A stretch of 64,000 nucleotides of DNA from Diphasiastrum complanatum. Taxonomy: Eukaryota > Streptophyta > Lycopodiopsida > Lycopodiales > Lycopodiaceae. The stretch covers positions 12,859,484 to 12,923,483 of the forward strand of contig CM055102.1 of the NCBI GenBank assembly GCA_029204225.1, given 5' to 3'. Made by a program: the position numbers and the translations under genes. The notes beneath the pieces were generated by a model. That model worked only from the letters and a program-made list of their open reading frames with translations, did not search any database and was not told the origin of the DNA. This document shows positions 6,557 through 61,965 of the stretch, piece by piece (within the stretch, counting starts at the first letter, position 1; every line of letters starts with the position of its first letter).

Positions 6557-7226
<670 letters not shown>

Positions 7227-19330: not shown

Positions 19331-20735
19331 GCGCAACGGACAAGTTATAAAATGTCTTGCGCAACGGACAAGTTATATATAGGATATCCATTGTGCCTAA
19401 CAAGCATTTTTTCTATTCTAGCATATTATGCCAAAGCTACAATTAAGAAATGATATGCATATTGTGACATTAGCACACAATCATAAAAGTAACTCATTCT
19501 AGGTATTCATTACAAATGATATGCATACCTAGTGACATTGAATAGTAGCATGAGCACAAACTTATCAAAATAACTCATAAAGGGTGGCTACTAAAAGGAT
19601 TATCATGGTGTTTGCAAAATATCTTGACTCTTAGTAAACACCTTCTAAGCCTCCCCATGGAGGGTAGAACACCTTTAATTTAGTCTTTACATCATGTAAA
19701 CTCTAATGACTAGAGCTTTACATCCCTTTGGATCTGTTCTTGGGCAATATCCTTGAGAACATAAAATCTTTCAAATTTGACAATGTTAATGGTTTAATGA
19801 TGTGTACACGTAGCATGAAGTTCTTTGCCCAACATCTTTAGGAAATTTGAGCATGCATGCCATAAAGCGAAGCCTGTGTAGACAGGGTCAACTCTTGATG
19901 GTAAGAGTTATATTGCCACATATATTGTCGCATCATGATCAATTTTTATTTGTGTGTCCTTATTGGAATAAAAATAATCATTTCCTATAGCCTTGCACTT
20001 AAAGGCCATGAGCTTTCTAGCATGATTTATTGAATGGCCATTGTTAGTTGCACTTTTTGAAAAAGCGAGAAGAATGGCTTACAAAGATAGAACTAAACAA
20101 ATCGATATATCTCTTTATAATAGCTTGTCCTTCCAATATAATTTGATAGGCCATTTTTTTTTCTAATGTGCATCTTGATTTTCAAGGGGGCCTCCAACCC
20201 TAAACTTCAAGCTAAAACAAATTCAACTAAATTGAGACTACAGTCATATTTTGATACTTCTTAAGTAAATTCATATTTTGAGACTTCTTAACCAAATTGA
20301 ATGTAGATTTATTGTCTCTAAGTATATATTATTATCATGTGATAACAACAATAGTTTTAACCCTATTTACTATACATTCTTAATATACAATAGATGAGTT
20401 ATAAGAGGAGAGTTTCTATTTAAAAACATGAATAGTCTCAAAATAGTGATTTTGGTGTTAGTCAATTCTTTTGAAACATATAAACTTTTTGTTCAGTATA
20501 AATATAGAGAATGTACTCAACTAAAATTCTAACTGTGAATTCTTGTATTGTTTGTTTATGTTCATGCAGAACGGGCATCGAGATGGGTTTTCATATTTTG
20601 AGAGTAAATTTTTTGCAAATGTTGCAAGTTTCTTCTATCCATGCTCCAACAAAATAGTAGCACATGGTGTGCTACTCTGTTTATCCGTCAAAAACTGTAA
20701 TAGACGTCAAAATTGACACTGGTATTGCATGTCAC
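19331..20735. repeat. duplicate of the element flank (segments U and U2)
   Basis: Matches 22365-23640, so the same flank occurs twice in succession in this unit (19331-20735 and again from about 22365). A block between two TAGTC words is deleted at about 20460. No gene is seen. A perfect 9-bp hairpin lies at 20656-20676. Confidence 0.55.
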
Positions 20736-20829
20736 TTTTTGACACCCAAGACACCAAAAACATGTTGAACTAGCTTGTGCACATGGACTTCCACGTTAGG
20801 TTTTGGTAGTCGAATGCGATGTACAGTCC

Positions 20830-22120
20830 TATGCTTGGCTTAGTTGCCATGTTCCCATTCTTTCTTGAAAGCTTTTCATCTTTTTGAATTTTGACATGTC
20901 CTTTTTGGAGTCCTGCTTTTGATAAAACATCTTCTAATCGAGAGATAGCTTCCTTTGCTAATGATGTTGGCTTAGTATTCCAAACAAAAACTACATGAAG
21001 ATATTGATCTTTTCTATTAATCTAACTTCTGCATGAAGAGTGCAAACATGCACATTTTTTAAGGGGATAGGCAGCACAGGCTTCCAGTTTGGATCTGCAT
21101 ATTGTCTATTAATTCTTGTACTCCTAGTTACATCTTTTGCCATTTTCATGCAATACAAACAAGGGTGTTTAGATGCAGCACCGTGAGAGACATTATACAT
21201 ACATTTCAATGTTTTCAAATCACTTGCTAGGTGCCATTCAACATTGAGGTCTCTAACTCATGGAACATTGAGAAGTCCTCCATCCATATGGTCATTGATG
21301 ATCCTAGGATAAGATGTCCTTGAGAATATCCATGATAATATATCATGATCCTCTTTCAGCACCTATCCAAAGAATTAATCAAACTTAGTTTAAAATGTAT
21401 TAATACCATTCAATGAATGTAATGTAATAATGAGGCTAGTTACCTGAAACGCCGCCAACCACCATATACCATTTTCTGACTGGACACTGAATTTGAAATC
21501 TTCTTGGTTCTCTGTTTGTGATAGAGCACCATTCATGAGAGTTATACTCACCCTCTCCATCTTCTACCCTTTCACAGTTTCTAACTCATCTAACTTAAGT
21601 ACTATGATTATTTTGCCATTCACCTTTTCATAGGTTATATCATAGAAAGTGACGATGTATCTCAGCAAGTAATTTAGATCAACAAATAAATTGTTTGATA
21701 AATTAAAGAATATCGATCTTCCATCACTTTCATACACCTCCTCAATATGAAATGGAGTTCCAATGATCTTATGCCTACCTATGTTAATGTATCCCTCTCT
21801 TTTTTCAAGTGATATGTCCTAGGGATTAGGACTTTTCTAATTTGAACTTGCTTAAAAGCTTCTCTAATTAGTTTAAATATTGTTGCATATGCTTCCCTGC
21901 TAATACCCGCAAAATCACAAGCACTCTGAACTATAAGGCTTATCTAAAATTTCTTGAATGTCCACCATCAAAGACTTTGCTATTTTACACTTTACATTTG
22001 AAATCATATGGTTCATCATGATATGCTGAGTGGTTTTGCAAGACAATATTGTGGCCAATGACATTTCTAGTGAAGCATTGTCTTTAATATTCCGAGGAGC
22101 TACTAATGCAGATCTGCAAA
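20830..22120 (-). pseudogene. transposase-like gene, copy 3 (3' end missing)
   Basis: The third block with HLAGDLK-like and PCLYCMKMAKDVTRS motifs is readable at 20991-21218. The second block and the 5' exon follow upstream, to the CAG acceptor near 22118. The final exon with the candidate catalytic Glu is replaced at about 20830 by flank sequence. There are several frame breaks. The inverted counterpart is 60520-61800. Confidence 0.5.
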
Positions 22121-23795
22121 AAAAAACAGATAGTTAACAGAATATCAGAATAGCTGAAATAAAATCCAATAGCAAGGTATAACAGTTGCATAATCTTCTC
22201 TTTTGTTTGATCGGTACTTGCTATACCATTAGATGAGAGTGGAGCCTCTGCATATATTTTCAGTCATGGGCCAAGAATACACCCTTTTATTTATAGGCTA
22301 TCCATTAGTATGAAAATAAAAGGCTATTAATAGATTACTTATTTATAAAATGGACAACTTATTTATAAAATGTCTTGTGCAATGGACAAGTTATATATAG
22401 GATATCCATTATGCCTAACAAGCATTTTTCCTATTCTGTCATATTATGCCAAAGCTACAATTAAGAAATGATATGCATATTGTGACATTAGCACACAATC
22501 ATAAAAGTAACTCATTCTAGGTATTCATCACAATTGATATACATATCTAGTGACATAGAATAGTAGCATGAGCACAAACTTATCAAAATAACTCATAAAG
22601 GGTATCTACTAAAAGGATTATCATGGTGTTTGCAGAATATCTTGACTCTTAGTAAACACCTTCTAAGCCTCCCCATGCAGGGTAGAACACCTTCAATTTA
22701 GGTCTTTACATCAGGTAAACTCTAATGACTAGAGTTTTACATCCCTTTGGATGTGTTCTTGGGCAATATCCTTGAGAACATAAAATCTTTTAAATTTGAC
22801 AATGTTAATGGTTTAATGATGTGTACACGTAGCATGAAGTTCTTTGCCGAACATCTTTAGAAAATTTGAGCACGCATGCCATAAAGCGAAGCGTGTGTAG
22901 ACATGGGCAACTCTTGATGGTAAGAGTTATATTGCCACATATATTGTCGCATCATGATCAATTTTTATTTGTGTGTCCTTATTGGAATAAAAATAATCAT
23001 TTCCTATAGCCGTGCACTTACAGCCCATGAGCTTTCTAGCATGATTTATTGAATGGCCATTGTTAGTTGCACTTATTGAAAAAGCAAGGAGAATGGCGTA
23101 CAAAGATAGAACTAAACAAATCGATATTTCTCTATATAATAGCTTGTCCTTCCAATGTTATTTGATAGGCCATTTTTTTTTTCTAATATGCATCTTGATT
23201 TTCAAGGGGACCTCCAACCCTAAACTTGAAGTTAGCACAAATTCAACTAAATTGAGACTACAGTCATATTTTGATACTTCTTAAGTAAATTCATATTTTG
23301 AGACTTCTTAACCAAATTGAATGTAGATTCATTGTCTCGAAGTATATACTATTATCATGTGATAACAACATTAGTTTTAACCTTATTAGTTATACATTCT
23401 TAATATTCAATAGATGAGTTAAAAGAGGAGAGTTTCTATTTAAAAACATGAATAGTCTCAAAATAGTGGTTTTTGTGTTAGTCCTAAATTGTATGGATAG
23501 ATGCCGAATGACTCCCCACTAAAGAGGTATATGACTTTGCATTTAGAAAATCCTTTGATCCAGTAGTCGATAAATTGAAAAGGGAGGGTCATCCTCCATA
23601 GTCAATTCTTTTGAAACATATAAACTTTTTGTTCACTATAAATATAGAGACTGTACTCAACTTAAATCCTAACCGTTAATTCTTGTATTGTTTGTTTATG
23701 TTCATGCAGAACGGGCATCGAGATGGGTTTTGATATTTTCAGAGTAAATTTTTTGCAAATTTTGCGAGTTTCTTCTATCCATGCTCCAACAAAAT
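22121..23795. repeat. element flank (segments U and U2), copy 3
   Basis: Non-coding repeat sequence, mirrored at 58830-60510. The candidate N-terminal exon of the element is degenerate here (around 22880-23060). The plus-strand frame at 23060-23284 is an accident of the AT-rich strand. Confidence 0.4.
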
Positions 23796-23816
23796 AGTAG
23801 CACATGGTGTGCTACT
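23796..23816. other. perfect short hairpin
   Basis: AGTAGCACA-TGG-TGTGCTACT: 9-bp perfect arms around a 3-base loop. Also at 20656-20676, 38732-38752 and, in reverse orientation, 58831-58851. Confidence 0.85.
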
Positions 23817-23879
23817 CTGTTTATCGGTCAAAACCTGTAATATGTGTCAAAATTGACACTGGTATTGCATGTCACTTTT

Positions 23880-24232
23880 TGACGTCCAAGACACCAAAAA
23901 CACGTTGAACTAGCTTGTGCACATGGAGTTCCACGTTAGGTTTTGGTAGTCGAATGCAATGTACAGTTGGATGCTGGATTGTGACGTCCACTTGGCGGTC
24001 GAATAGCAACGTCCACATGGGCGGCATAATGTGACGTTCATGTGGACAACCTCGATCAGTGTCCTACTGATGGATCCTGCGGAGCTAGTTGGCATAGGCA
24101 TCATTTTTGCGACACATTTTATAGTTGTGAAAATTTGATGACCCTGTTGTGACATGTTTTGTGGCACCTTTGTAGATTCAAAAAACCTAAATGTGTGATT
24201 TCACATTGGAAATCATGGCGAGTGTTGTAGTG
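23880..24232 (-). mobile_element. CACTA-like transposon terminus, left-arm copy
   Basis: Read on the minus strand from 24232 the sequence begins CACTACAACACTCGCC. It is followed by subterminal words such as GTGCCACAAAACATG and TGTCGCAAAAATGATGCC, and by repeated GTCCACATG/CATGTGGAC words. This is the usual look of a plant En/Spm (CACTA) end. The matching opposite end and a 3-bp target duplication were not found. The same end occurs at 39167 (minus) and 58492 (plus). Confidence 0.55.
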
Positions 24233-24492
24233 ATCCCTTGTCTAACTATAAGTAATAGGTAGGTGTATTCTACTCTCATGCATAATGTCCTCACTAGCAA
24301 TTTTTTGCATGGACTCCAATTCAAGTTATAGTTAAACTATGAATTATCTTGAGTTTTTCTAAAGTTAACAACTAATGTATTTTTAATTTGTCGTCGTAAT
24401 CTTCCCATATGTTGTAAGTTGATGTATCATCTGTGGTCATGATCCCAAGATAGTACCTAGGAGCATTAGTCAATGTAACCAATTCCCTAGTT

Positions 24493-24520
24493 TGTGTGTG
24501 TGTGTGTGTGTGCGCGCGCG
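24493..24520. repeat. (GT)n/(GC)n microsatellite
   Basis: Alternating GT run continuing into GCGCGCGC. Equivalent runs lie at about 39429-39469, 42001-42030, 44568-44597, 47135-47164 and, as AC, 58206-58231. Confidence 0.9.
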
Positions 24521-25127
24521 CATGTGCTTGAGGTGACCATAAACCTTAGCTACTTAGTGATAGTTAGGTGCAATCTACTCTCATGCATCATGTCCATTGA
24601 TTTTTAATTTTTCATGGACTAGCTAAAGCTATAATTGAACAATTAACTATGCAAAGTTAACTTGAGTTTCATTCAAGCAATTGCCTATTACTAACTAGAC
24701 TCGTCTAATGCAAGGTTAGTTGTAGGCTAATCCTACTCAACAAGGGAGGTTGTAGTTGAATGAGATTATTGTACACCCTTAAGGTTAAAGAGCTACATAA
24801 TATGCAATGTTTAGATTATTTGGCCTAGATCGATAAAGGTTTAACTGAGGGACCAATTAGGTACAAGCATCAATTGGGCATAGAAGACTTGAAAATGAAT
24901 TGTGCAAGGATGTTATACACGGTAAATGGAGTATATAACCTTTTGCTTTTACTTTAACAAAGTTAGGAAGGTGCTATTTACAGTGGCACAAGCACACCAT
25001 AGATCCAGCCATTGCACTGATGAAAGATGAAAAAGAATTGTTCTAGCTTAGTAAGAAGTTTTGTTGGAGTTGATCATTTTGAGAGCATCATAAACATTCA
25101 TTGAGCACATTTTCTTCTTGGTCTAAC

Positions 25128-25406
25128 TTAGCTTGCATGGAAGACCCCTACATCGTTTGCTCTTTCTGATTTTGCTTCGTCTAGCTCAGGGGAGAAAGTT
25201 GGATACAACAAGTCACTATGATATTCATAGATGGGTGGTGAGCAACTCTCCAATGTTTTGTTTGAAAATTCCATGTTCAAGGTCTTTGAGATAGTAGCCC
25301 TAATGATGTCAACTCTTTTATTGAATGCCCTATCATAAAAATTTCCTAAGATTTGTCTTCCAATAAGTGGTGAGGTGGAGGGTACTTTCTTTGTTCTACT
25401 TATAAG
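25128..25406 (-). other. unidentified open frame in CKX 3' flank
   Basis: About 90 codons without a clear Met start, ending in TAA. Recognisable stretches are VPSTSPLIGRQILGNFYDRA and SPELDEAKSERAND. The frame is also readable in the inverted copy (about 57325-57603). The composition looks protein-like, so it may be an exon relic of a mobile element or of a lost gene. It is on the same strand as CKX, about 1.05 kb past the CKX stop. Confidence 0.3.
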
Positions 25407-25456
25407 TTATGCTCTAGAGTTTGACTCCAATTTGCTAGTTAGTTGCTTCACCAAAC

Positions 25457-25792
25457 CATAGTTCCATCGTATAATACAAGCATATAATACGGTGCCATAT
25501 AATACATGTATTATACTTTTTTTGGATAAAAAATACCTATAGCTAATAAATAGCCCTACCTGTACCTTTTGACAATTGACAAGTTTTTATCAAATAATTC
25601 ATATGTGATCCACGGTTTTCTTTAGAATTTTGTTCTTAAGTTTATGTTTGAAGGGATGAACAATAAGATAAAATAATCTCATTTTTGTTTTTGAGTAAGA
25701 CTATTGAAAATTATAATATAGTGATCAAATATTTATATAACACGTTAATTATATGGTATATTACTATAAAATACGTATTATATGCAACTATG
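25457..25792. mobile_element. MITE with CATAGTTGCAT-type terminal inverted repeats
   Basis: The left end reads CATAGTT(c/g)CATCGTATAATAC and the right end is its near complement, GTATTATATGCAACTATG. The interior is very AT-rich and palindromic (TATAATACATGTATTATA at about 25498). Both sides are flanked by CACCAA, a possible target duplication. No coding capacity. Longer 361-bp versions lie at 40405-40765, 42972-43332, 45539-45899 and 56914-57274. Confidence 0.65.
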
Positions 25793-27689
25793 CACCAAGC
25801 TTCAATGCTTTTTTTTTATAGTCATGGAGCATATTGATTAAGTAGCAACCTTGCTACTTGTACCCGCATCTTTTATAGATAGTGATATGGTTATGTAGGT
25901 TCCTTGTTACTTGTGCTGACATTTTTTATGCACAAATATATGGTGTACATTGAGTAATAAGTGATCGAGTTTAATCGTCATAGAGCACATGACTCCAAGA
26001 TGTCAACAAGTCAAGCTATGTATGAGTGACAAGACACAGTTACCCAACGTGTTGAACACATGTGAGAGTGACAAAACACTGTCTCTTACCCAGCTCAATT
26101 GGCACCCATATAAGTTTACACTTCACATTTTACCCTTCATGGGAAAGAATATTATATAAGCCTTTGCATTTATGACAAATTGTGCTTGCATGTGAGTTTG
26201 CAGACAACCTGGAGAATGCATCAATGCTCCAGGCTTTGTCCCATAACTCTAGAGGAACAAAGACTGATCGGAGCTCGCAGACTAACTTTACAGGTACATC
26301 ATAATCCCGTTCTCATTATTTAAGAGTATCCTATCAAATATCAACTATTCACAGTTTTAGGCACACCATTTATTTAAGTCTTATGCTTCCCAACATAAGA
26401 CTCAGCAGCCCATCTTGTTCACAACACTTCTTTGAGGTGAACCATTATCTGCTTTAGGAAAGAGTTTTGCTCCTCCAAAAAAATCTTTGACCAGGAGACA
26501 AAATGGCTTTGGGATCGTACCTCAGTTTTCTTTCACGAAATCTGGGCCACAAACGGTCAAAATGGGTTCTCCATTCGTCCTGATTGACGTAGTGTGGAAG
26601 ATATTGTTTGTACTCGATGGATTTTGTTCTGCAGAAATATAATATCTTGCTATTTTGATCCATTAACGATTCTGCTGTTGGAGCTGAACGTGGTGATGCA
26701 TATCCGAGCAGTCCTACCGCGTAGAAGATGTCTTCGCTAGGTGTCACCGCAGACATTCGGGAATCCCATCTATACAACAGTGGCAAAGGAAGGGTTGCAA
26801 TCACTAGTTATCATCAACGAGTATGATAATGTTTGGATCTCAGTCTCGACTCGTCTTTTGTTGCATTTAATTTTAATTTCCATGTAAGAACATGCAAAAA
26901 TGAAGACAATGGTTGAATAGAGGACTTACTTGTTACGGTTGAGGGGATAGACAAGCATCGGTCCGTTTATGCCTCCGCTCAGCTTTTGCTTAAAAACCCA
27001 AGCATCAAACTCTATAATCCGGCTCTTGGAAATGAATAGGTTCAACCACGGGTGAAGAGTGTACCAGAGACCTGACTTTCGGAGATCTCTTTCTTTGTCG
27101 TGGACCCTGTCAAGAAAGCCCAAATACGAAGCATCTATGATGCTGACTTCGGATGGAAGATAATGAAGCCGTTCTAACAATGAATTTAACTTCTGCGTGG
27201 CACAAAAGAAAATTTCAAGTCACTCGAAGCTTAAGCATATCACAAGCGAATTAAAAATTTTCGTAAAATGAACAGAGCTTGTAACTGGAGCCATAATCAA
27301 AAGCTATTTATCTTTACGTGACTGCAATATAATAACACTTATCATTGTATTAAATGTGATAATGACGACAGATTACCTTGCCTATCAAGTTTGATTCACG
27401 CTCAAAATAGGCCTTGGTGAGCTCCAGACAATAAAGGACTGGAGCATCTGATTCTATCGTGACATTGGAATTCACATCTTCTAATGTATGGGACTCCATC
27501 TTCCAGCTATTCACATCTTTGCCTTTAACCAACACGGACCCTTCGATATAATCAAAAGAATTCTCCCTTCCTTGTGAAATCAACATCTCTTGATCTTTCG
27601 TAAAAGCTGAAAAATCTGAGTAGTAAGCTCGAACCCATTTCACCTAGAAATAAGCAGCCATATTCAAGGTGTAGAAAGACATATAAGAT

Positions 27690-27694
<5 letters not shown>

Positions 27695-27723
<29 letters not shown>
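27695..27723. repeat. (GA)n microsatellite in CKX intron 2, copy 3
   Basis: About 14 GA units just inside intron 2. The inverted copy has a longer CT run at 54952-54997. Confidence 0.9.
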
Positions 27724-27728
<5 letters not shown>

Positions 27729-28055
27729 TTGCACTACCTTAGGAGGAACATGATGGAGGCGGATTTTGGCTTTAGTTATGATAGCGAATTGTCCCAGACC
27801 TCCTAACACCGAGTAGAAGAGATCTGCATGTTGGTGTTTGGAGCATATCACGATCTCTCCTTTTCCTGCCAATTCCATATATAATTCAAGTATTGTCCAT
27901 TTTATTTCTCTATTACTATCTCTTGTTCTAAAAGAAAGTTAATATGAAACTAGGCATGTAAGGTTGTAGTGAAGGGAGGGGGGGGCCCGCCTGAGGCCCT
28001 TCCTTGCTTAGGCAACCCGGACCAGCAAGGAAGGCCCAAGGGCTTCGGGCCTCCC

Positions 28056-28373
28056 CTTACGTTATGCCATTGTGCTAAGTTTTTTTTTTTTTTGTTTTTT
28101 TTTTTTACGTTTGTGGGGGAATGTGGATGTGGACAGCCTATGACGAGCTACCACATACCACATACACATTCCACCGGAGAGAGGAGAGAGAACGTGCATT
28201 CCACCGGAGAGAGGAGAGAGAACGTGCATTCCACCGGACAGAGAACGTGATTTCCACGGGAGAGAGGAGAGAGAATGACAGATTACTAGGAGAGAGAAAA
28301 TTGGATGGACATTATGCTCCTAGAGGTGGTCCCAAAATACAAAGGACACCTGAGCACAAGGCATTACGATAAG
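28056..28373. mobile_element. small foldback element in CKX intron 1
   Basis: CTTACGTTATGCCATTGTGC at 28056 and the imperfect complement at 28352-28373 (outer end CTTATCGTAATGCCTTGTGC on the other strand) form inverted ends of about 22 bp. Inside are T-rich tracts and about three copies of a 31-bp minisatellite built on CATTCCACCGGAGAGAGGAG (28170-28270). A GC-rich block (27975-28055) adjoins it. The same element is present in the inverted CKX copy (about 54304-54620), so it predates the duplication. Confidence 0.5.
28170..28270. repeat. 31-bp minisatellite
   Basis: Two exact units and a shorter, diverged third of CATTCCACCGGAGAGAGGAG followed by AGAGAACGTG. Mirrored at about 54425-54520. 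The short open frames over it (for example 28121-28372) are repeat artefacts. Confidence 0.85.
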
Positions 28374-28398
28374 AGGAAGAATTTGTACTATAGAATGG

Positions 28399-29598
28399 CC
28401 AGGCTGGTTTATTGCATAGTTCAAGCGATTTATTTATTATGAATAAAAAGTTTATCAATTGCATGCCTAAAGCATCACTGAACTTTTTTCTTTACATCCA
28501 GAACTCTTAAGTGCACAAAAATGCCTTGCTGAAAATAACTTTACAAATGTGCAAGGTGTGCCTGTTATAAATAGAATGCATTAAGATTGCGTAACAACCT
28601 TCAATTTGGTTTCGTATTGTAGTTTGAGGAAGCCTTAAATGGCACAAATGAGAGTGGAGCCTTTGCATATATTTCCAGTCATGGGCCAAGACTACACCCT
28701 TTTATTTATAGGCTCTCCATTAGTATGAAAATAAAAGGCTATTAATAGATTACTTATTTATAGATAAATAATTTTGCATGCAAAATGAACAACTTATTTA
28801 TAAAATGTCTTGCGCAATGGACAAGTTATATATAGGATATCCATTATGCCTAACAAGCATTTTTTCTATTCTAGCATATTATGCCAAAGCTACAATTAAG
28901 AAATGATATGGATATTGTGACATTAGCACACAATCATAAAAGTAACTCATTCTAAGTATTCATTACAATTGATATACATACCTAGTGACATTGAATAGTA
29001 GCACGAGCACAAACTTATCAAAATAACTCATAAAGGGTGGCTACTAAAAGGATTATCATGGTGTTTGCAGAATATCTTGACTCTTAGTAAACACCTTCTA
29101 AGCCTCCCCATTCAAGGTAGAACACATTCAATTTAGGTCTTTACATCAGGTAAACTCTAATGACTAGAGTTTTACATCCCTTTGGATCTGTTCTTGGGCA
29201 ATATCCTTGAGAACATAAAATCTTTTAAATTTGACAATGTTAATGGTTTAATGATGTGTACACGTAGCATGAAGTTCTTTGCCCAACATCTTTAGGAAAT
29301 TTGAGCACGCATGCCATAAAGCGAAGCCTGTGTAGACAGGGTCAACTCTTGATGGTAAGAGTTATATTGCCACATATATTGTCGCATCATGATCAATTTT
29401 TATTTGTGTGTCCTTATTGGAATAAAAATAATCATTTCCTATAGCCTTGCACTTAGTGCCCATGAGCAAGCCCATGAGCTTTCTAGCATGATTTATTGAA
29501 TGGCCATTGTTCGTTGCACTTATTGAAAAACCGAGGAGAACGGCTTACGGAGATAGAACTAAACAAATCGATATTTCTCTTTATAAGCACATGTTTTT

Positions 29599-29632
<34 letters not shown>

Positions 29633-29913
29633 CTATAAGCTTTCTAAGCATTTCAATAAAAAGAAAAGAGTGTATCATCTACAACTCACAAAGCAATTTT
29701 AGATGCCTCTCCAAAGTTGACTAATTCACCTACAACTCATGAAACAATTTTTAGAGCTCTCTAAAGTCCTGCAATTCAACTAGAGGGTCCTTCCAAAATC
29801 GATCATTTTTTCACTACATCCACTTTCATAACATCAAAGCAACGAGATTTGTGGTCTATATAAATATTCTTGCATCGATAAAACAAATGTCCACTACAAA
29901 TTATAAATTATGG
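28399..29913. other. 1.5-kb segment present in copy 3 intron 1, absent from the inverted copy
   Basis: The segment is bounded by ATGG on both sides (28395-28398 and 29910-29913). At the matching place in the other arm (54283-54286) a single CCAT, the complement of ATGG, joins the flanks directly. Inside, about 28640-29580 is a piece of the transposase-element flank (compare 22230-23130), followed by a (GA)n run at 29602-29631 and about 280 bp not seen elsewhere. It is either an insertion with a 4-bp duplication or a deletion in the other arm between 4-bp repeats. Confidence 0.75.
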
Positions 29914-30200
29914 TAGGATGAAAATTCCTTGACCAATTGACTTGGGCTCAAATCACTGTTGGTGCAATGTTAGTATCTTAGAGCATTGTGATCCGTACTC
30001 AAGTTCAACCCATTATTCAGTATAATGCAACATTTACATAACAATGCTAGTGTGGTTCAATTTATTATTGATAAACAACAAATGTTTTCACAGGTAAAAT
30101 GTATAGTGTTGGCATTAGAAAATAACATCAATCATCGAATGAAAGAAAATCATGCGTTACAACAAAAAGTAGACTTAAATAAACTGCCATTAATCCATTA

Positions 30201-30401
<201 letters not shown>

Positions 30402-30900
30402 TCACCACGTCGATCCATAGCTCGCCACCGCTAGCCTCCACAAACGGAACCGCAGCTTCTCCGAATCCATGCACGCCCACCTCGATGCCTTTCAGGCTAG
30501 ACATTTCGATTACAATCCCATGCAGAGCTTGTGCTTGGCCGTAGATAGAATGACCTGCTCCTTTTGCAGCTATGGTTAGATTGTTTGGTGAGAAGTATGC
30601 AAGCTTCACTATTGCAACGATGTCCTGTGCTGAAGATGGGTATATAATTGCAGATGGGCGGTCGTGATACATGTGGCCGAAGTCTTGAGATGCCTTGGCG
30701 GTGTTCGAGAAGGAAATATTTAGGTTCAGATTCAATGCAGCAAGTTCCCTGCAGTTTTCTTTGGATAAAGAGCAGGATGGGGTGGCAGCTGTGACGATGA
30801 AATCGGGGAAAGAACGCATAAAGGAGAGTAAACATAACCCAAGCAAGATGCACGGCAAGCATGCAGACGGAATTGTGGTCGAAGTGCGTCTAGATGTCAT

Positions 30901-31499: not shown

Positions 31500-31537
<38 letters not shown>

Positions 31538-46824: not shown

Positions 46825-46891
46825 TATATAACAGTGCAAAGGAAGGGCTGCAATCAATAATTGTCATCAACGAGTATGATAATGTTTGGAT

Positions 46892-49130: not shown

Positions 49131-49158
49131 TGATAAAGCTTTAATTGCCATTATCAAA

Positions 49159-50272: not shown

Positions 50273-50279
50273 TTCTAGG

Positions 50280-51180
50280 GATTTCGGAAAACTCATCGTA
50301 TAATGAGTTGAGGCTGCAGCTACTAGACTTTGGAGTCTAGTGATGACATATGCATTTGAGAGAGTGCTGATTATTGCCGATCCTTGGCATTTCTTATGAA
50401 TCAAGAATGCTTTTGGGATCGTGGCTTACATCCACATAGGTAGCCCTCTTGCTTATCTTGATTGAATAGAAGATTTTCCATGAGTATTGGCAATTCTTGA
50501 GCTTCTTAATGATAGTGGCTTCTTGTGTGATGTTTTTTACAATCTTGCACTTCCATTCTCCATATGTGGTTGTGGATTTAGATTAGTTTCTTGCTTTCTT
50601 CTAGATGCATTATGGATTAGAGTGGATTAGCTTTCTCGTTTGCAGAATAGTGTAGAATCAAGCATTTAAGTAAACTAAATAGGTTGAAATTGTGGCATAG
50701 ATCTTGCAGATTCCTTTACATTTTAGTTCTTGATGTTCTTGGGTTGTCCGAGAATCAAGACATGAGTGTTTCTTGATACAAGTAGAAGTATGAATCTGAT
50801 AGGTGTTCAATCGAGCTGCATTCTGATCCTAGTTGAGCATAGTTCAAGCATGAAGGAGGTCCGTGTATCCACTGACAATCTAGATAATCTATACTACAAC
50901 GCCAAACCTTCTGCCTGATTGGGTAATGAACCAAGAATAATAAGTCATTGATACCCGTGAAGCCTGGTAATGGGCAGAAATTGAAACGCCAAGTAACAAG
51001 GTGCCAAACTGTAATAGTTAAGTAAGGATTTACTGACTGATAAAGAGAATCAGTGAACACTTTAGGGATGTCATATAGTTTTCTAGTCAAGCATCTTGGT
51101 GTCACTAGTTGAATAGGGCCAATTTTTGCATTAGAGGTCAAATAGTCACAGCCCAATTATTAAAATTCATTTTTTAACAC
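50280..51180 (+). repeat. repeat segment Q, inverted copy
   Basis: Reverse complement of 33024-33960. Minor indels, including loss of about 25 bp around 50838. No supported gene. Confidence 0.55.
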
Positions 51181-52649
51181 TTCATTTTAACTTTATAGGC
51201 TTTTTATATGACTAAAAATCAATTGAGTTTAGTTATAAATTTGAGAGTTTAAGGTTTTATTTTAACCTTTTACCGATTTCATAATAATTTTGTGGATTTT
51301 TTATAAGATTAGTTTCAAACTTTTTAACACCAATGGTATGAAATCACCCAAATAGCTCAACTACATTAGCTAACAAGTATCAAGGCAAAGCTAAAAGCGA
51401 GGATAGTGTAACATTATGCTTGTAGGGAAAACATGAAACTTCTCCACATGTCACTTGGGGAGGCTTCTAATCTTTCGTGGAATTGTATTATCACCTTCGA
51501 TAGTTTCTTACTATTAGTAGCTGATATTTAAAATTGTTTCTACTGTCGAGTCTCGAGTAGTCACTAGTGAGAAAGAATTGGCTATTAATTCTAAATATGT
51601 ACATATGAGGATTTCTTTGACTCTTCACACTTGCTCCAGTCATCAATCATGGAACTAGTGACTGTTGCACCGACGATCTGATTTGCTGCATATATTATCA
51701 CTATTAATCTGCATATTTAGAATTCTTTCGCCTCTCGATTCGTGATAAAGAATTGGAGCATTGTCAATTACAGGTGACGCATTCGCTATTAATTCTAAAT
51801 ATGTACATATGAGGATTTCTTTGACTCTTCACACTTGTTCCAGTCATCAATAATGGAAATAGTGACCTGACGATCCGATTTGCAGCATAAGATCTCCTTT
51901 GATTGTAGGCCGGCTGGAGCAGCCTTCAAAGTTCAAAGGATTGTCTAAATCTTGCTTGCTCCTGTATCAATGGATTTGATACAAGTTGCAGTGTCTAAAT
52001 CTTGCTTGCTCCTGTCGTCAATGGATTAAAGATTTGATACAAGTTGCAGTTTCCCATGATGATGCAGCTCTATGCATGCATCGTAGGCTCGTAGCTGCAC
52101 GGAAATTGAAATAGCCGAGCTTAGAAACTAGTGTTTGCTCGGTCTCCATCACAGATAACAAGTTTCTGAGGTTCTCATGTGTGTCAGAGGCCGGGACTTT
52201 CAGGATTCGTATCTTTTGATGTTGAGGGTGGAGATTGGGTATAGCTGGGAACTTTAGAAGTTGGAAATTTGAACTTTGAATCTCCACATGGATCTAGAAA
52301 GATACGGCCTGCTGATTAAGGCGTGCACTCCATGTGCACCTGCACTCCCGGCCCTACTCCATCCAGTGATAGCCCTACTGCATCCAATGATAATATATGG
52401 GATTAAGAAAAAAACAAAAGATATATTTCCTTGGATGTAATGGGGCCTGTGCGACAGAGGCAGTCTCTAATGAGATCCCAGCCGGCCAGGTCCATGCGTG
52501 GTAGGCCTCGTATATTCCAATTTCGCAGTGCTCCACCAAAGTCCACAAAAGACTACAGTTCAGTGTCCTCTATATATCTTGCTGAACTGTTGCGATCCTT
52601 AACACCACCAACGGAATATGCGTTTGAGGAGAGAGCGAGATCGAGATCG

Positions 52650-52697
<48 letters not shown>

Positions 52698-53296
52698 GCA
52701 GCTGATCTTTGGCTTAGTTTACGCTTTCACTGTGATACACAGTTCAATTGTAGTAGTTGGGATCGTTTATATGCATAGTACATATGAAACCACTTCTCCT
52801 ATGTCAGAACTGAATGTGCTGATCTTTTTTCTTATTTCTAGAAAGCTCAAAGATGTGGCCAAACTTGTAATCTCTACATAGTAAACTCTCTAGCTACTTC
52901 TTTACAAGACATTTGCTCCTGAACTATCCCCATTTGAAAATGTTGCAGTTTCCTTGTGTGCATCTCAGTTAGGATTCTCTTGACATATTAAGATAAAGAG
53001 ATTGCATTATAATTTGAATAACCTCACAATTGATTTTGCGTAATTAACATCATTGTTTTGAACAGCTTCTAGTGGTTACTTCCCCAATACGAGTAGAGAG
53101 GTCTGACCAACACTGCTATAGAATGTCCTCAAGCCAATTGAATAACGCTTCTCGTAGATGGGATTGATCAGCTCAATGTAGTCAACGCTTTCGATGCATG
53201 TTAGGACTTTCGACACATAGAGTAGCGCTTTGCAGCATCGGTCCAGAATTAGTATAACCCAACAGTTGTTCCGTATTCGATCAATCGAAAGGAGCT
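51181..53296 (+). promoter_or_regulatory. upstream region of the intact CKX gene
   Basis: Mirror image of 30901-33023. The (GA)n run at 52653-52695 lies about 600 bp before the start codon. The minus-strand 89-codon frame at 52018-52287 is intact. GA/CT tracts are common in plant promoters, but I see no specific element that would show how the gene is controlled. Confidence 0.5.
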
Positions 53297-54947
53297 ATGA
53301 CATCTAGACGCACTTCGACCACAATTCCGTCTGCATGCTTGCCGTGCATCTTGCTTGGGTTATGTTTACTCTCCTTTATGCGTTCTTTCCCCGATTTCAT
53401 CGTCACAGCTGCCACCCCATCCTGCTCTTTATCCAAAGAAAACTGCAGGGAACTTGCTGCATTGAATCTGAACCTTAATATTTCCTTCTCGAACACCGCC
53501 AAGGCATCTCAAGACTTCGGCCACATGTATCACGACCGCCCATCTGCAATTATATACCCATCTTCAGCACAGGACATCGTTGCAATAGTGAAGCTTGCAT
53601 ACTTCTCACCAAACAATCTAACCATAGCCGCAAAAGGAGCAGGTCATTCTATCTACGGCCAAGCACAAGCTCTGCATGGGATTGTAATCGAAATGTCTAG
53701 CCTGAAAGGCATCGAGGTGGGCGTGCATGGATTTGGAGAAGCTGCGGTTCCGTTTGTGGAGGCTAGCGGTGGCGAGCTATGGATCGACGTGGTGAAGGAG
53801 GCATTGAAGAAGGGAATGGCGCCGAGATCTCTAACGGACTATCTGTATCTGAGCGTGGGAGGGACACTGTCCAATGCCGGGGTCAGCGGGCAGGCCTTTA
53901 GATATGGCCCTCAGATCTCCAACGTCCTTGAACTGGAGGTCGTCACAGGTAACTTTGCTCATTATGGTCTTCATTTTTGTCAATGCCTTTTCTGTTAATG
54001 GATTAATGGCAGTTTATTTAAGTCTACTTTTTGTTGTAACGCATGATTTTCTTTCATTCGATGATTGATGTTATTTTCTAATGCCAACACTATACATTTT
54101 ACCTGTGAAAACATTTGTTGTTTATCAATAATAAATTGAACCACACTAGCATTGTTATGTAAATGTTGCATTATACTGAATAATGGGTTGAACTTGAGTA
54201 GGGATCACAATGCTCTAAGATACTAACATTGCACCAACAGTGATTTGAGCCCAAGTCAATTGGTCAAGGAATTTTCATCCTACCATTCTATAGTACAAAT
54301 TCTTCCTCTTATCGTAATGCCTTGTGCTCAGGTGTCCTTTGTATTTTGGGACCACCTCCAGGAGCATAATGTCCATCCAATTTTCTCTCTCCTAGTAATC
54401 TGTCATTCTCTCTCCTCTCTCCCGTGGAAATCACGTTCTCTGTCCGGTGGAATGCACGTTCTCTCTCCTCTCTCCGGTGGAATGCACGTTCTCTCTCCTC
54501 TCTCCGGTGGAATGTGTATGTGGTATGTGGTAGCTCGTCATTGGCTGTCCACATCCACATTCCCCCACAAACGTAAAAAAAAAAACAAAAAAAACAAAAA
54601 CTTAGCACAATGGCATTACGTAGGGGGAGGCCCGAAGCCCTTGGGCCTTCCTTGCTGGTCCGGGTTGCCTAAGCAAGGAAGGGCCTCAGGCGGGCCCCCC
54701 CCTCCCTTCACTACAACCTTACATGCCTAGTTTCATATTAACTTTCTTTTAGAACAAGAGATAGTAATAGAGAAATAAAATGGACAATACCTGAATTATA
54801 TATGGAATTGGCAGGAAAAGGAGAGATAGTGATATGCTCCAAACACCAACATGCAGATCTCTTCTACTCGGTGTTAGGAGGTCTGGGACAATTCGCTATC
54901 ATAATTAAAGCCAAAATCCGCCTCCATCATGTTCCTCCTAAGGTAGT

Positions 54948-55001
<54 letters not shown>

Positions 55002-56252
55002 CTCATATCTCATAAAATCTTATATGTCTTTCTACACCTTGAATATGGCTGCTTATTTCTAGGTGAAATGGGTTCGAGCTTACTACTCAGATTTTTTGGC
55101 TTTTACGAAAGATCAGGAGATGTTGATTTCACAAGGAAGGGAGAATTCTTTTGATTATATCGAAGGGTCCGTGTTGGTTAAAGGCAAAGATGTGAATAGC
55201 TGGAAGATGGAGTCCCATACATTAGAAGATGTGAATTCCAATGTCACGATAGAATCAGATGCTCCAGTCCTTTATTGTCTGGAGCTCACCAAGGCCTATT
55301 TTGAGCGTGAATCAAACTTGATAGGCAAGGTAATCTGTTGTCATTATCACATTTAATACAATGATAAGTGTTATTATATTGCAGTCACGTAAAGATAAAT
55401 AGCTTTTGATTATGGCTCCAGTTACAAGCTCTATTCATTTTACAAAATTTTTTAATTCGCTTGTGATATGCTTAAGCTTCGAGTGACTTGAAATTTTCTT
55501 TTGTGCCACGCAGAAGTTAAATTCATTGTTAGAACGGCTTCATTATCTTCCATCAGAAGTCAGCATCATAGATGCTTCGTATTTGGGCTTTCTTGACAGG
55601 GTCCACGACAAAGAAAGAGATCTCCGAAAGTCAGGTCTCTGGTACACTCCTCACCCGTGGTTGAACCTATTCATTCCCAAGAGCCGGATTATAGAGTTTG
55701 ATGCTTGGGTTTTTAAGAAAAAGCTGAGCGGAGGCATAAACGGACCGATGCTTGTCTATCCCCTCAACCGTAACAAGTAAGTCCTCTATTCAACTATTGT
55801 CTTCATTTTTGCAGGTTCTTACAGGGAAATTAAAATTAAATGCAACAAAAGACGAGTCGAGACTGAGATCCAAACATTATCATACTCGTTGATGATAACT
55901 AGTGATTGCAACCCTTCCTTTGCGACTGTTGTATAGATGGGATTCCCGGATGTCTGCGGTGACACCTAGCGAAGACATCTTCTACGCGGTAGGACTGCTC
56001 GGATATGCATCACCACGCTCAGCTCCAACAGCAGAATCGTTAATGGATCAAAATAGCAAGATATTATATTTCTGCAGAACAAAATCCATCGAGTACAAAC
56101 AATATCTTCCACACTACGTCAATCAGGATGAATGGAGAACCCATTTTGACCGTTTGTGGCCCAGATTTCGTGAAAGAAAACTGAGGTACGATCCCAAAGC
56201 CATTTTGTCTCCTGGTCAAAGATTTTTTTGGAGGAGCAAAACTCTTTCCTAA
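53297..56252 (+). CDS. CKX: cytokinin oxidase/dehydrogenase (CKX), intact
   Basis: Five exons: 53297-53948, 54815-54942, 55063-55329, 55514-55776 and 55937-56252. They sum to 1626 bp, 541 residues plus TAA, a usual CKX length. All introns are GT-AG. The enzyme is an FAD protein that removes the isoprenoid side chain of cytokinins. Residues 1-40 look like a secretory signal. KGAGHS at 113-118 holds the His (117) expected to bind FAD covalently. TDYL (Asp181) and FDYIEG (Glu294) fit the catalytic acids by spacing from maize CKX1. HPWLNLF, YLPHY (493-497) and LSPGQ (527-531) are further family marks. The C-terminus has no obvious targeting signal. The start is the Met before the hydrophobic stretch. 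The only unbroken copy in the window. Which family member it is cannot be told here. Confidence 0.93.
54304..54620. mobile_element. foldback element in intron 1 of the intact CKX
   Basis: Inverted counterpart of 28056-28373, with the minisatellite at about 54425-54520 and A-rich tracts near 54575. A GC-rich block (about 54620-54712) follows. The long frame 54245-54730 that crosses it is an artefact of the repeats. Confidence 0.5.
54952..54997. repeat. (CT)n microsatellite in CKX intron 2
   Basis: About 23 units starting ten bases inside intron 2. Longer than the 14-unit equivalent in copy 3. Confidence 0.9.
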
Positions 56253-56913
56253 CTCAGATAATGGTTCACCTCAAAGAAGTGATGTGAACAAGATGGGCTG
56301 CTGAGTCTTATGTTGGGAAGCATAAGACTTAAATAAATGGTGAGCCTAAAACTGTGAATAGTTGATATTTGATAGGATACTCTTAAATAATGAGAACAGG
56401 ATTATGATGTACCTGTAAAGTTAGTCTACGAGCTCCGATCAGTCTTTGTTCCTCTAGAGTTATGGGACAAAGCCTGGAGCATTGATGCATTCTCCAGGTT
56501 GTCTACAAACTCACATGCAAGCACAATTTGTCATAAATGCAAAGGCTTATATAATATTCTTTCCCATGAAGGGTAAAATGTGAAGTGTAAACTTATATGG
56601 GTGCCAATTGAGCTGGGTAAGAGACAGTGTTTTGTCACTCTCACATGTGTTCAACACGTTGGGTAACTGTGTCTTGTCACTCATACATAGCTTGACTTGT
56701 TGACATCTTGGAGTCATGTGCTCTATGACGATTAAACTCGATCACTTATTACTCAATGTACACCATATATTTGTGCATAAAAAATGTCAGCACAAGTAAC
56801 AAGGAACCTACATAACCATATCACTATCTATAAAAGATGCGGGTACAAGTAGCAAGGTTGCTACTTAATCAATATGCTCCATGACTATAAAAAAAAAGCA
56901 TTGAAGCTTGGTG

Positions 56914-57274
56914 CATAGTTGCATATAATACGTATTTTATAGTAATATACCATATAATTAATGTGTTATATAAATATGTATAATCCAACGTATTATACAT
57001 ATTTGATCACTATATTATAATTTTCAATAGTCTTACTCAAAAACAAAAATGAGATTATTTTATCTTAGTGTTCATCCCTTCAAACATAAACTTAAGAACA
57101 AAATTCTAAAGAAAACCGTGGATCACATATGAATTATTTGATAAAAACTTGTCAATTGTCAAAAGGTACAGGTAGGGCTATTTATTAGCTATAGGTATTT
57201 TTTATCCAAAAAAAGTATAATACATGTATTATATGGCACCGTATTATATGCTTGTATTATACGATGCAACTATG
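56914..57274. mobile_element. MITE (CATAGTTGCAT ends), inverted arm
   Basis: A 361-bp copy with ends GCATAGTTGCATATAATACG and GTATTATACGATGCAACTATG. TTGGTG lies on both outer sides. Confidence 0.65.
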
Positions 57275-57324
57275 GTTTGGTGAAGCAATTAACTAGCAAA
57301 TTGGAGTCAAACTCTAGAGCATAA

Positions 57325-57603
57325 CTTATAAGTAGAACAAAGAAAGTACCCTCCACCTCACCACTTATTGGAAGACAAATCTTAGGAAATTTTTATGATA
57401 GGGCATTCAATAAAAGAGTTGACATCACTAGGGCTACTATCTCAAAGACCTTGAACATGGAATTTTCAAACAAAACATTGGAGAGTTGCTCACCACCCAT
57501 CTATGAATATCATAGTGACTTGTTGTATCCAACTTTCTCCCCTGAGCTAGACGAAGCAAAATCAGAAAGAGCAAACGATGTAGGGGTCTTCCATGCAAGC
57601 TAA
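57325..57603 (+). other. unidentified open frame in CKX 3' flank, inverted arm
   Basis: About 92 codons with no early Met, ending at TAA 57601-57603. It has the same stretches as the frame at 25128-25406 (GRQILGNFYDRAF, YEYHSDLLYPTF). Same strand as CKX. No family recognised. Confidence 0.3.
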
Positions 57604-58491
57604 GTTAGACCAAGAAGAAAATGTGCTCAATGAATGTTTATGATCCTCTTAAAATGATCAACTCCAACAAAAGCTAGAACAATTCTTTTTCATCTTTCAT
57701 CAATGCAATGGCTGGATCTATGGTGTGCTTGTGCCACTGTAAATAGCACCTTCCTAACTTTGTTAAAGTAAAAGCAAAAGGTTATATACTCCATTTACCG
57801 TGTATAACATCCTTGCACAATTCATTTTCAAGTCTTCTATGCCCAATTGATGCTTGTACCTAATTGGTCCCTCAGTTAAACCTATATCGAGCTAGGCCAA
57901 ATAATCTAAACATTGCATATTATGTAGCTCTTTAACCTTAAGGGTGTACCGTAATCTCTTTCAACTACAACCTCCCTTGTTGAGTAGGATTAGCCTACAA
58001 CTAACCTTGCATTAGACGAGTCTAGTTGGTAATAGGCAATTGCTTGAATGAAACTCAAGATAACTTTGCATAGTTAATTGTTCAATCATAGCTTTAGCTA
58101 GTCCATGAAAAATTAAAAATCAATGGACATGATGCATGAGAGTAGATTGCACCAAACTATCACTAAGTAGCTAAGGTTTATGATCACCTCAAGCACATTC
58201 GGGTGCGCACACACACACACACACACACACAAACTAGGGAATTGGTTACATTGAGTAATGCTCCTAGGTACTATCTTGGGATCATGACCATAGATGATAC
58301 ATCAACTTACAACATATGGGAAGATTACGACGACAAATTAAAAATATATTAGCTGTTAACTTTAGAAAAACTCAAGATAATTCATAGTTTAACTATAACT
58401 TGAATTGGAGTCCATGCAAAAAATTGCTAGTGAGGACATTATGCATGAGAGTAGAATACACCTACCTATTACTTATAGTTAGACAAGGGAT

Positions 58492-58830
58492 CACTACAAC
58501 ACTCGCCATGATTTCCAATGTGAAATCACACATTTAGGGTTTTTGAATCTACAAAGGTGCCACAAAACATGTCACAACAGGGTCATCAAATTTTGACAAC
58601 TATAAAATGTGTCGCAAAAATGATGCCTACGCCAACTAGCTCCGTAGGATCCATCAGTAGGACACTGATCGAGGTTGTCCACATGAACGTCACATTATGC
58701 CGCCCATGTGGACGTTGCTATTCGACCGCCAAGTGGACGTCACAATCCAGCATCCAACTGTACATTGCATTCGACTACCAAAACCTAACGTGGAACTCCA
58801 TGTGCAGAAGCTAGTTCAACGTGTAAAAAG
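58492..58830 (+). mobile_element. CACTA-like transposon terminus, inverted arm
   Basis: Starts CACTACAACACTCGCC and continues with GTCGCAAAAATGATGCC and repeated GTCCACATG-type words. Counterpart of the end at 24232. The frames 58557-58814 and 58697-58945 over it are incidental. Confidence 0.55.
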
Positions 58831-60510
58831 AGTAGCACACCATGTGCTACTATTTTGTTGGAGCATGGATAGAAGAAACTCACAAAATGTGCAAAAAATT
58901 TACTCTGAAAATATCAAAACCCATCTCGATGCCCGTTCTGCATGAACATAAACAAACAATACAAGAATTAACGGTTAGGATTTAAGTTGAGTACATTCTC
59001 TATATTTATAGTGAACAAAAAGTTTATATGTTTCAAAAGAATTGACTATGGAGGATGACCCTCCCTTTTCAATTTATCGACTACTGGATCAAAGGATTTT
59101 CTAAATGCAAAGTCATATACCTCTTTAGTGGGGAGTCATACAATTTAGGACTAACACAAAAACCACTATTTTGAGACTATTCATGTTTTTAAATAGAAAC
59201 TCTCCTCTTATAACTCATCTATTGAATATTAAGAATGTATAACTAATAAGGTTAAAACTAATGTTGTTATCACATGATAATAGTATATACTTCGAGACAA
59301 TGAATCTACATTCAATTTGGTTAAGAAGTCTCAAAATATGAATTTACTTAAGAAGTATCAAAATATGACTGTAGTCTCAATTTAGTTGAATTTGTGCTAA
59401 CTTCAAGTTTAGGGTTGGAGGTCCCCCTGAAAATCAAGATGCATATTAGAAAAAAAAAATGGCCTATCAAATAACATTGGAAGGACAAGCTATTATATAG
59501 AGAAATATCGATTTGTTTAGTTCTATCTTTGTACGCCATTCTCCTTGCTTTTTCAATAAGTGCAACTAACAATGGCCATTCAATAAAGCATGCTAGAAAG
59601 CTCATGGGCTGTAAGTGCACGGCTATAGGAAATGATTATTTTTATTCCAATAAGGACACACAAATAAAAATTGATCATGATGCGACAATATATCTGGCAA
59701 TATAACTCTTACCATCAAGAGTTGCCCCTGTCTACACAGACTTCGCTTTATGGCATGCGTGCTCAAATTTCCTAAAGATGTTCGGCAAAGAACTTCATGC
59801 TACGTGTACACATCATTAAACCATTAACATTGTCAAATTTAAAAGATTTTATGTTCTCAAGGATATTGCCCAAGAACAGATCCAAAGGGATGTAAAACTC
59901 TAGTCATTGGAGTTTACCTGATGTAAAGACCTAAATTGAAGGTGTCCTACCCTGCATGGGGAGGCTTAGAAGGTGTTTACTAACAGTCAAGATATTCTGC
60001 AAACACCATGATAATCCTTTTAGTAGATACCCTTTATGAGTTATTTTGATAAGTTTGTGCTCATGCTACTATTCTATGTCACTAGGTATGTATATCAATT
60101 GTAATGAATACCTAGAATGAGTTACTTTTATGATTGTGTGCTAATGTCACAATATGCATATCATTTCTTAATTGTAGCTTTGGCATAATATGATAGAATA
60201 GGAAAAATGCTTGTTAGGCATAATGGATATCCTACATATAACTTGTCCATTGCACAAGACATTTTATAAATAAGTTGTCCATTTTATAAATAAGGAATCT
60301 ATTAATAGCCTTTTATTTTCATACTAATGGATAGCCTATAAATAAAAGGGTGTATTCTTGGCCCATGACTGAAAATATATGCAGAGGCTCCACTCTCATC
60401 TAATGGTATAGCAAGTACTGATCAAACAAAAGAGAAGATTATGCAACTGTTATACCTTGCTATTGGATTTTATTTCAGCTATTCTGATATTCTGTTAACT
60501 ATCTGTTTTT
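58831..60510. repeat. element flank, inverted arm
   Basis: Mirror of 22130-23816, starting with the hairpin at 58831-58851. About 85 bp found in the other copies before the hairpin (around GACATGCAATACC) are missing. The candidate N-terminal exon near 59580-59760 is interrupted by a stop. Confidence 0.5.
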
Positions 60511-60519
60511 TTTTGCAGA

Positions 60520-61805
60520 TCTGCATTAGTAGCTCCTTGGAATATTAAAGACAATGCTTCACTAGAAATGTCATTGGCCACAATATTGACTTGCAAAACC
60601 ACTCAGCATATCATGATGAACCATATGATTTCAAATGTAAAGTGTAAAATAGCAAAGTCTTTGATGGTGGACATTCAAGAAATTTTAGATAAGCCTTATA
60701 GTTCAGGGTGCTTGTGATTTTGCGGGTATTAGCAAGGAAGCATATGCAACAATATTTAAACTAATTAGAGAAGCTTTTAAGCAAGTTCAAATTAGAAAAG
60801 TCCTAATCCCTAGGACATATCACTTGAAAAAAGAGAGGGATACATTAACATAGGTAGGCATAAGATCATTGGAACTCCATTTCATATTGAGAAGGTGTAT
60901 GAAAGTGATGGAAGATCGATATTCTTTAATTTATCAAACAATTTATTTGTTGATCTAAATTACTTGCTGAGATACATCGTCACATTCTATGATATAACCT
61001 CTGAAAAGGTGAATGGCAAAATAATCATAGTACTTAAGTTAGATGAGTTAGAAACTGTGAAAGGGTAGAAGATGGAGAGGGTTAGTATAACTCTCATGAA
61101 TGGTGCTCTATCACAAACAGAGAACCAAGAAGATTTCAAATTCAGTGTCCAGTCAGAAAATGGTATATGGTGGTTGGCGGCGTTTCAGGTAACTAGCCTC
61201 ATTATTACATTACATTCATTGAATAGTATTAATACATTGTAAACTAAGTTTGATTAATTCTTTGGATAGGTGCTGAAAGAGGATCATGATATATTATCAT
61301 GGATATTCTCAAGGACATCTTATCCTAGGATCATCAATGACCATATGGATGGAGGACTTCTCAATGTTCCATGAGTTAGAGACTTCAATGTTGAATGGCA
61401 CCTAGCAAGTGATTTGAAAACATTGAAATGTATGTATAATGTCTCTCACGGTGCTGCATCTAAACACCCTTGTTTGTACTGCATGAAAATGGCAAAAGAT
61501 GTAACTAGGAGTACAAGAATTAATAGAGAATATGCAGATCCAAACTGGAAGCCTGTGCTGCCTATTCCCTTAAAAAATGTGCATGTTTGCACTCTTCATG
61601 CAGAAGTTAGATTAATAGAAAAGATCAATATCTTCATGTAGTTTTTGTTTGGAATACTAAGCCAACATCATTAGCAAAGGAAGCTATCTCTCGATTAGAA
61701 GATGTTTTATCAAAAGCAGGACTCCAAAAAGAACATGTCAAAATTCAAAAAGATGAAAAGCTTTCAAGAAATAATGGGAACATGCCAACTAAGCCAAGCA
61801 TAGGA
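60520..61805 (+). pseudogene. transposase-like gene, inverted copy (3' end missing)
   Basis: The 5' exon starts after TTTTTTTTGCAG at 60519. The second block ends at donor 61188. An 81-bp intron (61189-61269, GT-AG) is followed by the third block, whose long frame reads at 61414-61641 and contains CMYNVSHGAASKHPCLYCMK. A stop replaces a Trp/Gly codon after FSMFH near 61374, the second block has a TAG after KG near 61067, and a one-base loss lies near 60851. The sequence leaves the gene at about 61805, before the exon with the candidate catalytic Glu. Confidence 0.5.
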
Positions 61806-61965
61806 CTGTACATCGCATTCGACTACCAAAACCTAACGTGGAAGTCCATGTGCACAAGCTAGTTCAACATGTTTTTGGTGTCTTGGGTGTCAAAAAGTGA
61901 CATGTCAAAAAGTGTCTTGTTTTTAGTTCAACATGTTTTTGGTGTCTTGGGTGTCAAAAAGGAGA
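61806..61965. repeat. breakpoint region with a short direct duplication
   Basis: AGTTCAACATGTTTTTGGTG followed by TCTTGGGTGTCAAAAAG occurs at about 61861-61897 and again at 61926-61962. After the second copy the sequence jumps to the middle of the coiled-coil ORF. This is the outer end of the inverted homology with 20735-20830. Confidence 0.85.

Follow-up and report, generated by a model that had tools for sequence, protein, structure and literature searches.

A mirrored pair of cytokinin oxidase/dehydrogenase gene units in Diphasiastrum complanatum is very probably the edge of a 90-kb inversion within a tandem array

A 64,000-nucleotide stretch of Diphasiastrum complanatum DNA (contig C11, positions 12,859,484-12,923,483; henceforth the window, whose numbering may run on past its right edge) contains a large mirrored repeat. 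We find that this repeat is very probably the edge of a 90-kb inversion within a tandem array of cytokinin oxidase/dehydrogenase (CKX) genes. As such it is an event of a known kind and no special palindrome. Since the inversion would lie inside a pre-existing array of direct repeats, the arms would be just two of many paralogous units that now stand face to face.

RESULTS

The inverted repeat and its arms

The inverted repeat noted in a preliminary description of the window is real, and the coordinates given there are correct to within tens of bases by self-BLAST and by alignment of the arms. The left arm (20715-38196, minus strand) is an array unit inside the inverted segment, while the right arm (48057-61916, plus strand) lies outside it and is an array unit that runs in the usual direction. 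Self-BLAST gives four inverted matches between them, i.e. 20715-23823 with 61916-58824 (98.1%), 23900-28398 with 58824-54283 (97.1%), 29910-35114 with 54286-49126 (98.1%) and 37120-38192 with 49128-48056 (99.3%). Aligned as reverse complements, the arms are 98.9% identical over 13,794 columns. This is far above chance; a single shuffle of the right arm gave one match at E ≤ 1. The left arm is also collinear, in reverse, with most of the uninverted unit at C11:12,573-12,588 kb.

The arms differ by 150 substitutions and 16 indels, two of which are at least 100 bp in length. These two, of 1,515 and 2,008 bp, are both absent from the right arm, so that the scattered substitutions and the segments confined to the left arm that were described previously are seen in the alignment. 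The shorter (28399-29909) lies in intron 1 of the left-arm CKX gene (copy C) and is missing from its right-arm counterpart (copy D); its ends share a 4-bp microhomology (ATGG). The longer (35115-37119) has a 3-bp microhomology (TTA). Both look like deletions with microhomology, presumably losses rather than gains. In looking for signs of transposon ends at these differences, we found no inverted pair within the 1.5-kb segment, while the 2-kb one has two weak pairs, both internal. The units of two further CKX copies, E and F, contain the 1.5-kb segment and lack the 2-kb segment, and the large arm differences look like ordinary variants of the array unit.

Almost the whole of the window is repetitive, 63,085 of its 64,000 bases being repeated elsewhere within it and 915 being unique. 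By self-BLAST, the sequence outside the arms belongs to the same repeat families. The spacer between the arms (38197-48056, minus strand, by self-BLAST) consists from 39183 to 48057 of about 3.5 head-to-tail copies of a 2.57-kb unit, three of which carry the last CKX exon (41374-41689, 43941-44256 and 46508-46823, all minus strand). Fewer copies of the 2.57-kb unit are present in the related uninverted stretches that were fetched. A megablast search of 39183-41755 against a plasmid collection gave no match, nor did a search of Rfam at gathering scores. The array also carries a block at 34200-35000 (plus strand) that behaves like a dispersed repeat in a genome-wide DNA search, with 93-100% identity on C11 and 76-83% elsewhere among the best 40 of 1,127 first-look candidates.

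The transposase-like genes proposed earlier for the arms find no support, as no transposase family was found in Pfam scans of 21 of the 24 open reading frames of at least 120 amino acids (20 frames at E 0.01, and ten at E 10, which added one frame to the first 20). Two related open frames, 10677-11447 (256 amino acids) and 49129-49809 (226 amino acids), match no Pfam family above cut-off and have weak coiled-coil-like matches. No family identity was reached for the frames at 3548-4674 and 36783-37211.

CKX copies and their coding state

The presence of CKX genes in both arms, as first described, is supported by the Pfam families PF09265 and PF01565, which define membership of the family here. 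The best matches of the exons among solved structures are to cytokinin oxidases/dehydrogenases, a group whose solved structures come mostly from plants. In copy D of the right arm (53297-56252, plus strand), five exons are separated by GT-AG introns and give an open frame of 541 amino acids. A single protein covers the full profiles of both FAD_binding_4 (PF01565, 1-139 of 139) and Cytokin-bind (PF09265, 1-281 of 281), so copy D is a predicted cytokinin dehydrogenase. Copy C of the left arm (26454-30900, minus strand) likewise has five exons, with a one-base insertion and frameshift in exon 1. The previously described difference in CKX state between the arms is thus one between an open and a frameshifted gene. 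Copy B (15399-16675, minus strand) has part of exon 1 fused to the middle of exon 3, lacks exon 2 and has a truncated exon 5. A further copy of exon 1 lies at 6604-7226 (minus strand), detected by profile and exon search; no other CKX exons were found downstream of it within the window.

The coding state was tallied for ten copies, B to K; M, N and O were left out because their translation began at exon 2 in the wrong phase, and their stops do not mark them as broken. Copies F (12,578,468) and G (12,435,915) are open like D, and E is open until a 4-base insertion near its end. Frameshifts affect copies C, H, I and J, the last having an exon 1 that is doubtfully paired with exons 8 kb away, and B and K are partial. 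The indels of C and E both fall in single-base runs and so could be sequence errors. The ratio dN/dS, estimated by two methods, is 0.19-0.28 between D and F (on few changes) and 0.28-0.39 for either D or F against G. These values are consistent with constraint on the coding function.

A tandem array of CKX units on C11

The window is part of a mostly head-to-tail array of CKX genes and gene fragments that extends over C11 from approximately 12.44 to 13.02 Mb (about 0.6 Mb). Searching the genome (1.74 Gb in 5,176 contigs) for PF09265 gave 110 matches, all 114 of 114 candidates being scored, and 95 of these are on C11. Within 12.4-13.02 Mb there are 92, which fall into 41 clusters, single-exon fragments included, where a cluster comprises CKX exon matches separated by gaps of less than 1.5 kb. 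Three further C11 matches lie at 11.844 Mb. The remaining 15 are on C1, C2, C13, C18 and C4092, with exon DNA that is about 69-75% like that of copy D where aligned. The direct nature of the array is seen at C11 12.495-12.60 Mb, where 35 of the 35 self-matches listed are direct (megablast, at least 93% identity and at least 1.5 kb). The closest long pair seen, C11 12,567,567-12,579,779 and 67,223-79,450 in continued window numbering, is 99.5% identical over 12.2 kb.

Nearly equal PF09265 scores were obtained for copies at C11 11,844,181-11,845,682, 12,435,915-12,441,040 and 12,676,438-12,677,613, the first two being equally similar to copy D (about 94%) over exons 2-5. These three appear to be a separate sub-lineage, one of them about 0.6 Mb away from the array. 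Nearly equal scores are also seen for the copies on C18 (15.52 Mb, in a contig of chromosome size) and on C4092 (a contig of 38 kb), which are perhaps a leftover haplotype.

Orientation switches at two points

Between C11:12,817,277 and 12,907,539 (90,263 bp, of which the window contains the end, 1-48056) the array units are reversed, i.e. on the minus strand. A probe from 38000-38600 matches on the plus strand inside this segment in 12 of 12 cases, and on the minus strand outside it in 50 of 50 among the C11 matches listed. CKX exons are on the minus strand inside (13 of 13) and on the plus strand outside (76 of 79). Among the matches listed on C11, the block at 34200-35000 is reversed inside (6/6) and in its usual direction outside (21/21). 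The left half of the right junction is reversed in 7/7 listed matches inside and usual in 26/26 outside, and the left half of the left junction in 9/9 and 25/25, respectively; the right-half junction matches (6 and 5) agree by eye. Pooling the five match sets, 47 of 47 inside are reversed and 198 of 201 outside are in the usual direction, among the matches listed for the DNA probes. Units inside are thus reversed and, but for three CKX matches, those outside are not, as required for an inversion with two breaks.

These sets overlap in place, and some places count repeatedly through piecewise matches. The DNA-probe sets are the best 40 of 97 to 1,127 candidates. Before counting, 1 of 63 matches was dropped for probe 38000-38600 (on C449), 15 of 110 for CKX (not on C11, the trio at 11.844 Mb being kept apart), 13 of 40 for 34200-35000 (not on C11), and 7 of 40 and 6 of 40 for the right and left junctions (self and right-half matches). 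For about 300 kb of the array it is the probe matches that define the orientation. The three CKX fragments that are backwards outside the inverted segment lie at C11 12,496,619, 12,724,485 and 12,952,476, and so the array also holds smaller flips or rearrangements.

Reciprocal breakpoints and their footprint

The right breakpoint lies at 48056/48057, as located by a junction search and by the restored joints. The assembled right junction was matched over its full length by 1 of 40, i.e. itself, and the other 39 end at the joint (the best 40 of 97 first-look candidates). The same holds for the assembled left junction (12,817,276/12,817,277), where the full match is again only itself and 39 end at the joint (the best 40 of 324).

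We then asked what joints are obtained on undoing the inversion, with other units of this array, not another genome, standing for the uninverted state. One restored joint (J2) places the flank beginning at window position 48057 next to the start of the segment (from 12,817,277, reversed), with 2.5 kb taken on each side. It aligns over 5,000 of 5,000 bp both with 12,570,691-12,575,682 (99.04% identity) and with 70353-75351 in continued window numbering (98.98%). Among the matches listed, the intact joint is present at full length at four places besides the window; at the joint itself 5 bp are missing. The other restored joint (J1) has no spanning alignments when unmodified, as the 57 bp that immediately precede 12,817,277 are present again, inverted, at the end of the segment. 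This 57-bp inverted duplication of the sequence ending at C11:12,817,276 occupies 48000-48056 (minus strand) with one mismatch. On removal of one copy, J1 gives 17 spanning alignments of 90.5-96.9% identity, some of which are neighbouring tandem copies. Reversing the segment at the two reciprocal breakpoints therefore restores older joints. Since these joints exist in other units, while each assembled junction is matched in full only by itself among the best 40 candidates, the two junctions join old neighbours in a new way, as is characteristic of an inversion.

The 57-bp inverted duplication and the 5-bp loss fit a staggered break repaired by end joining, presumably the pathway that operated here. 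Staggered breaks with end joining have been described as leaving inverted duplications at the ends of inversions (PMC3355041).

At the left breakpoint there is a second inverted repeat (C11:12,815,770-12,820,891), in which CKX exon 5 and its flank face each other in convergent orientation. Here 12,815,770-12,817,276 is repeated in inverted form at 12,819,381-12,820,891, with 95.2% identity over 1.5 kb.

Nearest relatives of the arms

Each arm was divided into 1-kb bins, and the opposite arm was compared in each with the other copies fetched. In the left arm another copy was closer in 14 of 17 bins, with the opposite arm best in two and one tie; in the right arm another copy was closer in 12 of 14 and the opposite arm best in 2 of 14. 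The better-matching copy was often that at C11:12,573-12,588 kb. Note that one opposite arm is set against many copies in this test, that several margins are only 1-5 identical bases per kb, and that bins which either large indel interrupts lean towards other copies. The same trend is found within bins that are almost fully covered by the opposite arm. The arms are thus mostly not each other's closest relatives among the copies fetched, as those of a palindrome homogenized by conversion should be, and the conversion between arms that had been suggested for the repeat is not indicated by these comparisons.

DISCUSSION

We propose that repeated duplication built a mostly head-to-tail array in which CKX genes stand together with fragments of such genes and trapped repeats. 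This array would then have been broken at two points separated by 90 kb, with the middle (12,817,277-12,907,539) rejoined in reverse. One break would have been staggered, giving rise to the 57-bp inverted duplication, and the other would have lost 5 bp, as expected for non-homologous end joining. Formerly consecutive units would in this way become facing units at both breakpoints, and the arms at the right breakpoint would be an inverted unit lying close by and the closest of the uninverted units.

The preliminary description held that the repeat was unlike a simple read-through artefact, with which we agree, and took it for an old inverted duplication, where the reciprocal breakpoints point instead to an inversion in an array of direct repeats. 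A true inverted duplication that made a palindrome, for example by a fold-back event, could account for arms that are 98.9% identical. It predicts one junction without a reciprocal partner, and arms that are nearest relatives; two reciprocal junctions are seen 90 kb apart, with every counted match between them reversed, a spacer of direct repeats, and arms that are mostly closer to other units. We regard such an origin as barely credible. An assembly error, in which the assembler or scaffolder reversed a stretch of the array or misjoined two haplotypes, is a further rival. Units that share as much as 99.5% identity over 12 kb make this the type of locus where assemblers fail, and the 5,176 contigs perhaps include leftover duplicates, given the CKX copies of nearly equal score on C18 and C4092. 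An assembler is more likely to flip a sequence at a gap or at a long inverted overlap. The window contains no N, and neither do the fetched loci that were checked, the left breakpoint included; the joints are at non-homologous positions with the 57-bp inverted duplication and the 5-bp loss, i.e. the footprint of repair. An error is therefore unlikely, and we infer that the assembly is correct across the junctions.

Reduced CKX activity might also result from the facing CKX units, by way of hairpin RNA and small RNAs, an effect that would be compatible with the inversion. The precedent is in soybean, where the I locus is an inverted cluster of CHS genes, 27 kb in length, with siRNA (PMC3804491). 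The two loci are alike in that duplicated metabolic genes are arranged in inverted orientation; they differ in that siRNA is reported for soybean, and in that the CKX genes at the reported junction here diverge. With copies C and D both oriented away from that junction, their sense RNAs would not run across it. The left breakpoint is the place where a hairpin RNA could most easily arise, as read-through from the upstream CKX could fold back over the convergent exon 5 and flank. That upstream CKX has exons 2-5, and its exon 1 was not found in the fetched DNA. Moreover, the three fully open copies, with dN/dS of 0.19-0.39, point to a retained coding function. Silencing of this kind is accordingly improbable in our estimation. 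A bolder proposal, in which the inversion created convergent and divergent CKX pairs and a hairpin from the left breakpoint lowers CKX genome-wide, giving a dominant, heritable cytokinin setting and making the locus an analogue, for CKX, of that for CHS in soybean, would be a long shot.

The inversion that we favour has its closest parallels elsewhere. The Drosophila mojavensis inversions 2h and 2q (PMC3355041) similarly have reciprocal breakpoints with end sequence duplicated in inverted form, for which staggered breaks and end joining are invoked. The duplications described there are of kilobases, in contrast to 57 bp at one of two breaks here; unlike those inversions, the present one is inside a tandem array, so that kilobase-scale inverted repeats are found at its ends too. 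In poplar, inversions inside a tandem array are reported after induced breaks (PMC10460964). The NRX1 array described there resembles ours in having reversed stretches amid highly similar tandem genes, and differs in that Cas9 cut a seven-gene array of about 100 kb, in contrast to an unedited-looking array of about 0.6 Mb. The KCS genes of Populus (PMC13253262) are likewise multi-copy enzyme genes in tandem, with copy-number variation reported; the gene is a different one, and a link to Helitrons is claimed for Populus KCS. A literature search with coarse terms, covering titles and openings of abstracts in a partial listing, found no CKX array of the present kind and gave nothing usable on sex linkage of the array.

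A tandem gene array in which a stretch has been inverted can thus present, at the seam, what looks like a large palindrome, the footprint of break repair being visible at the level of single bases. If confirmed, this CKX array, in which some open copies are under apparent constraint, would provide a natural system for the study of CKX dosage.
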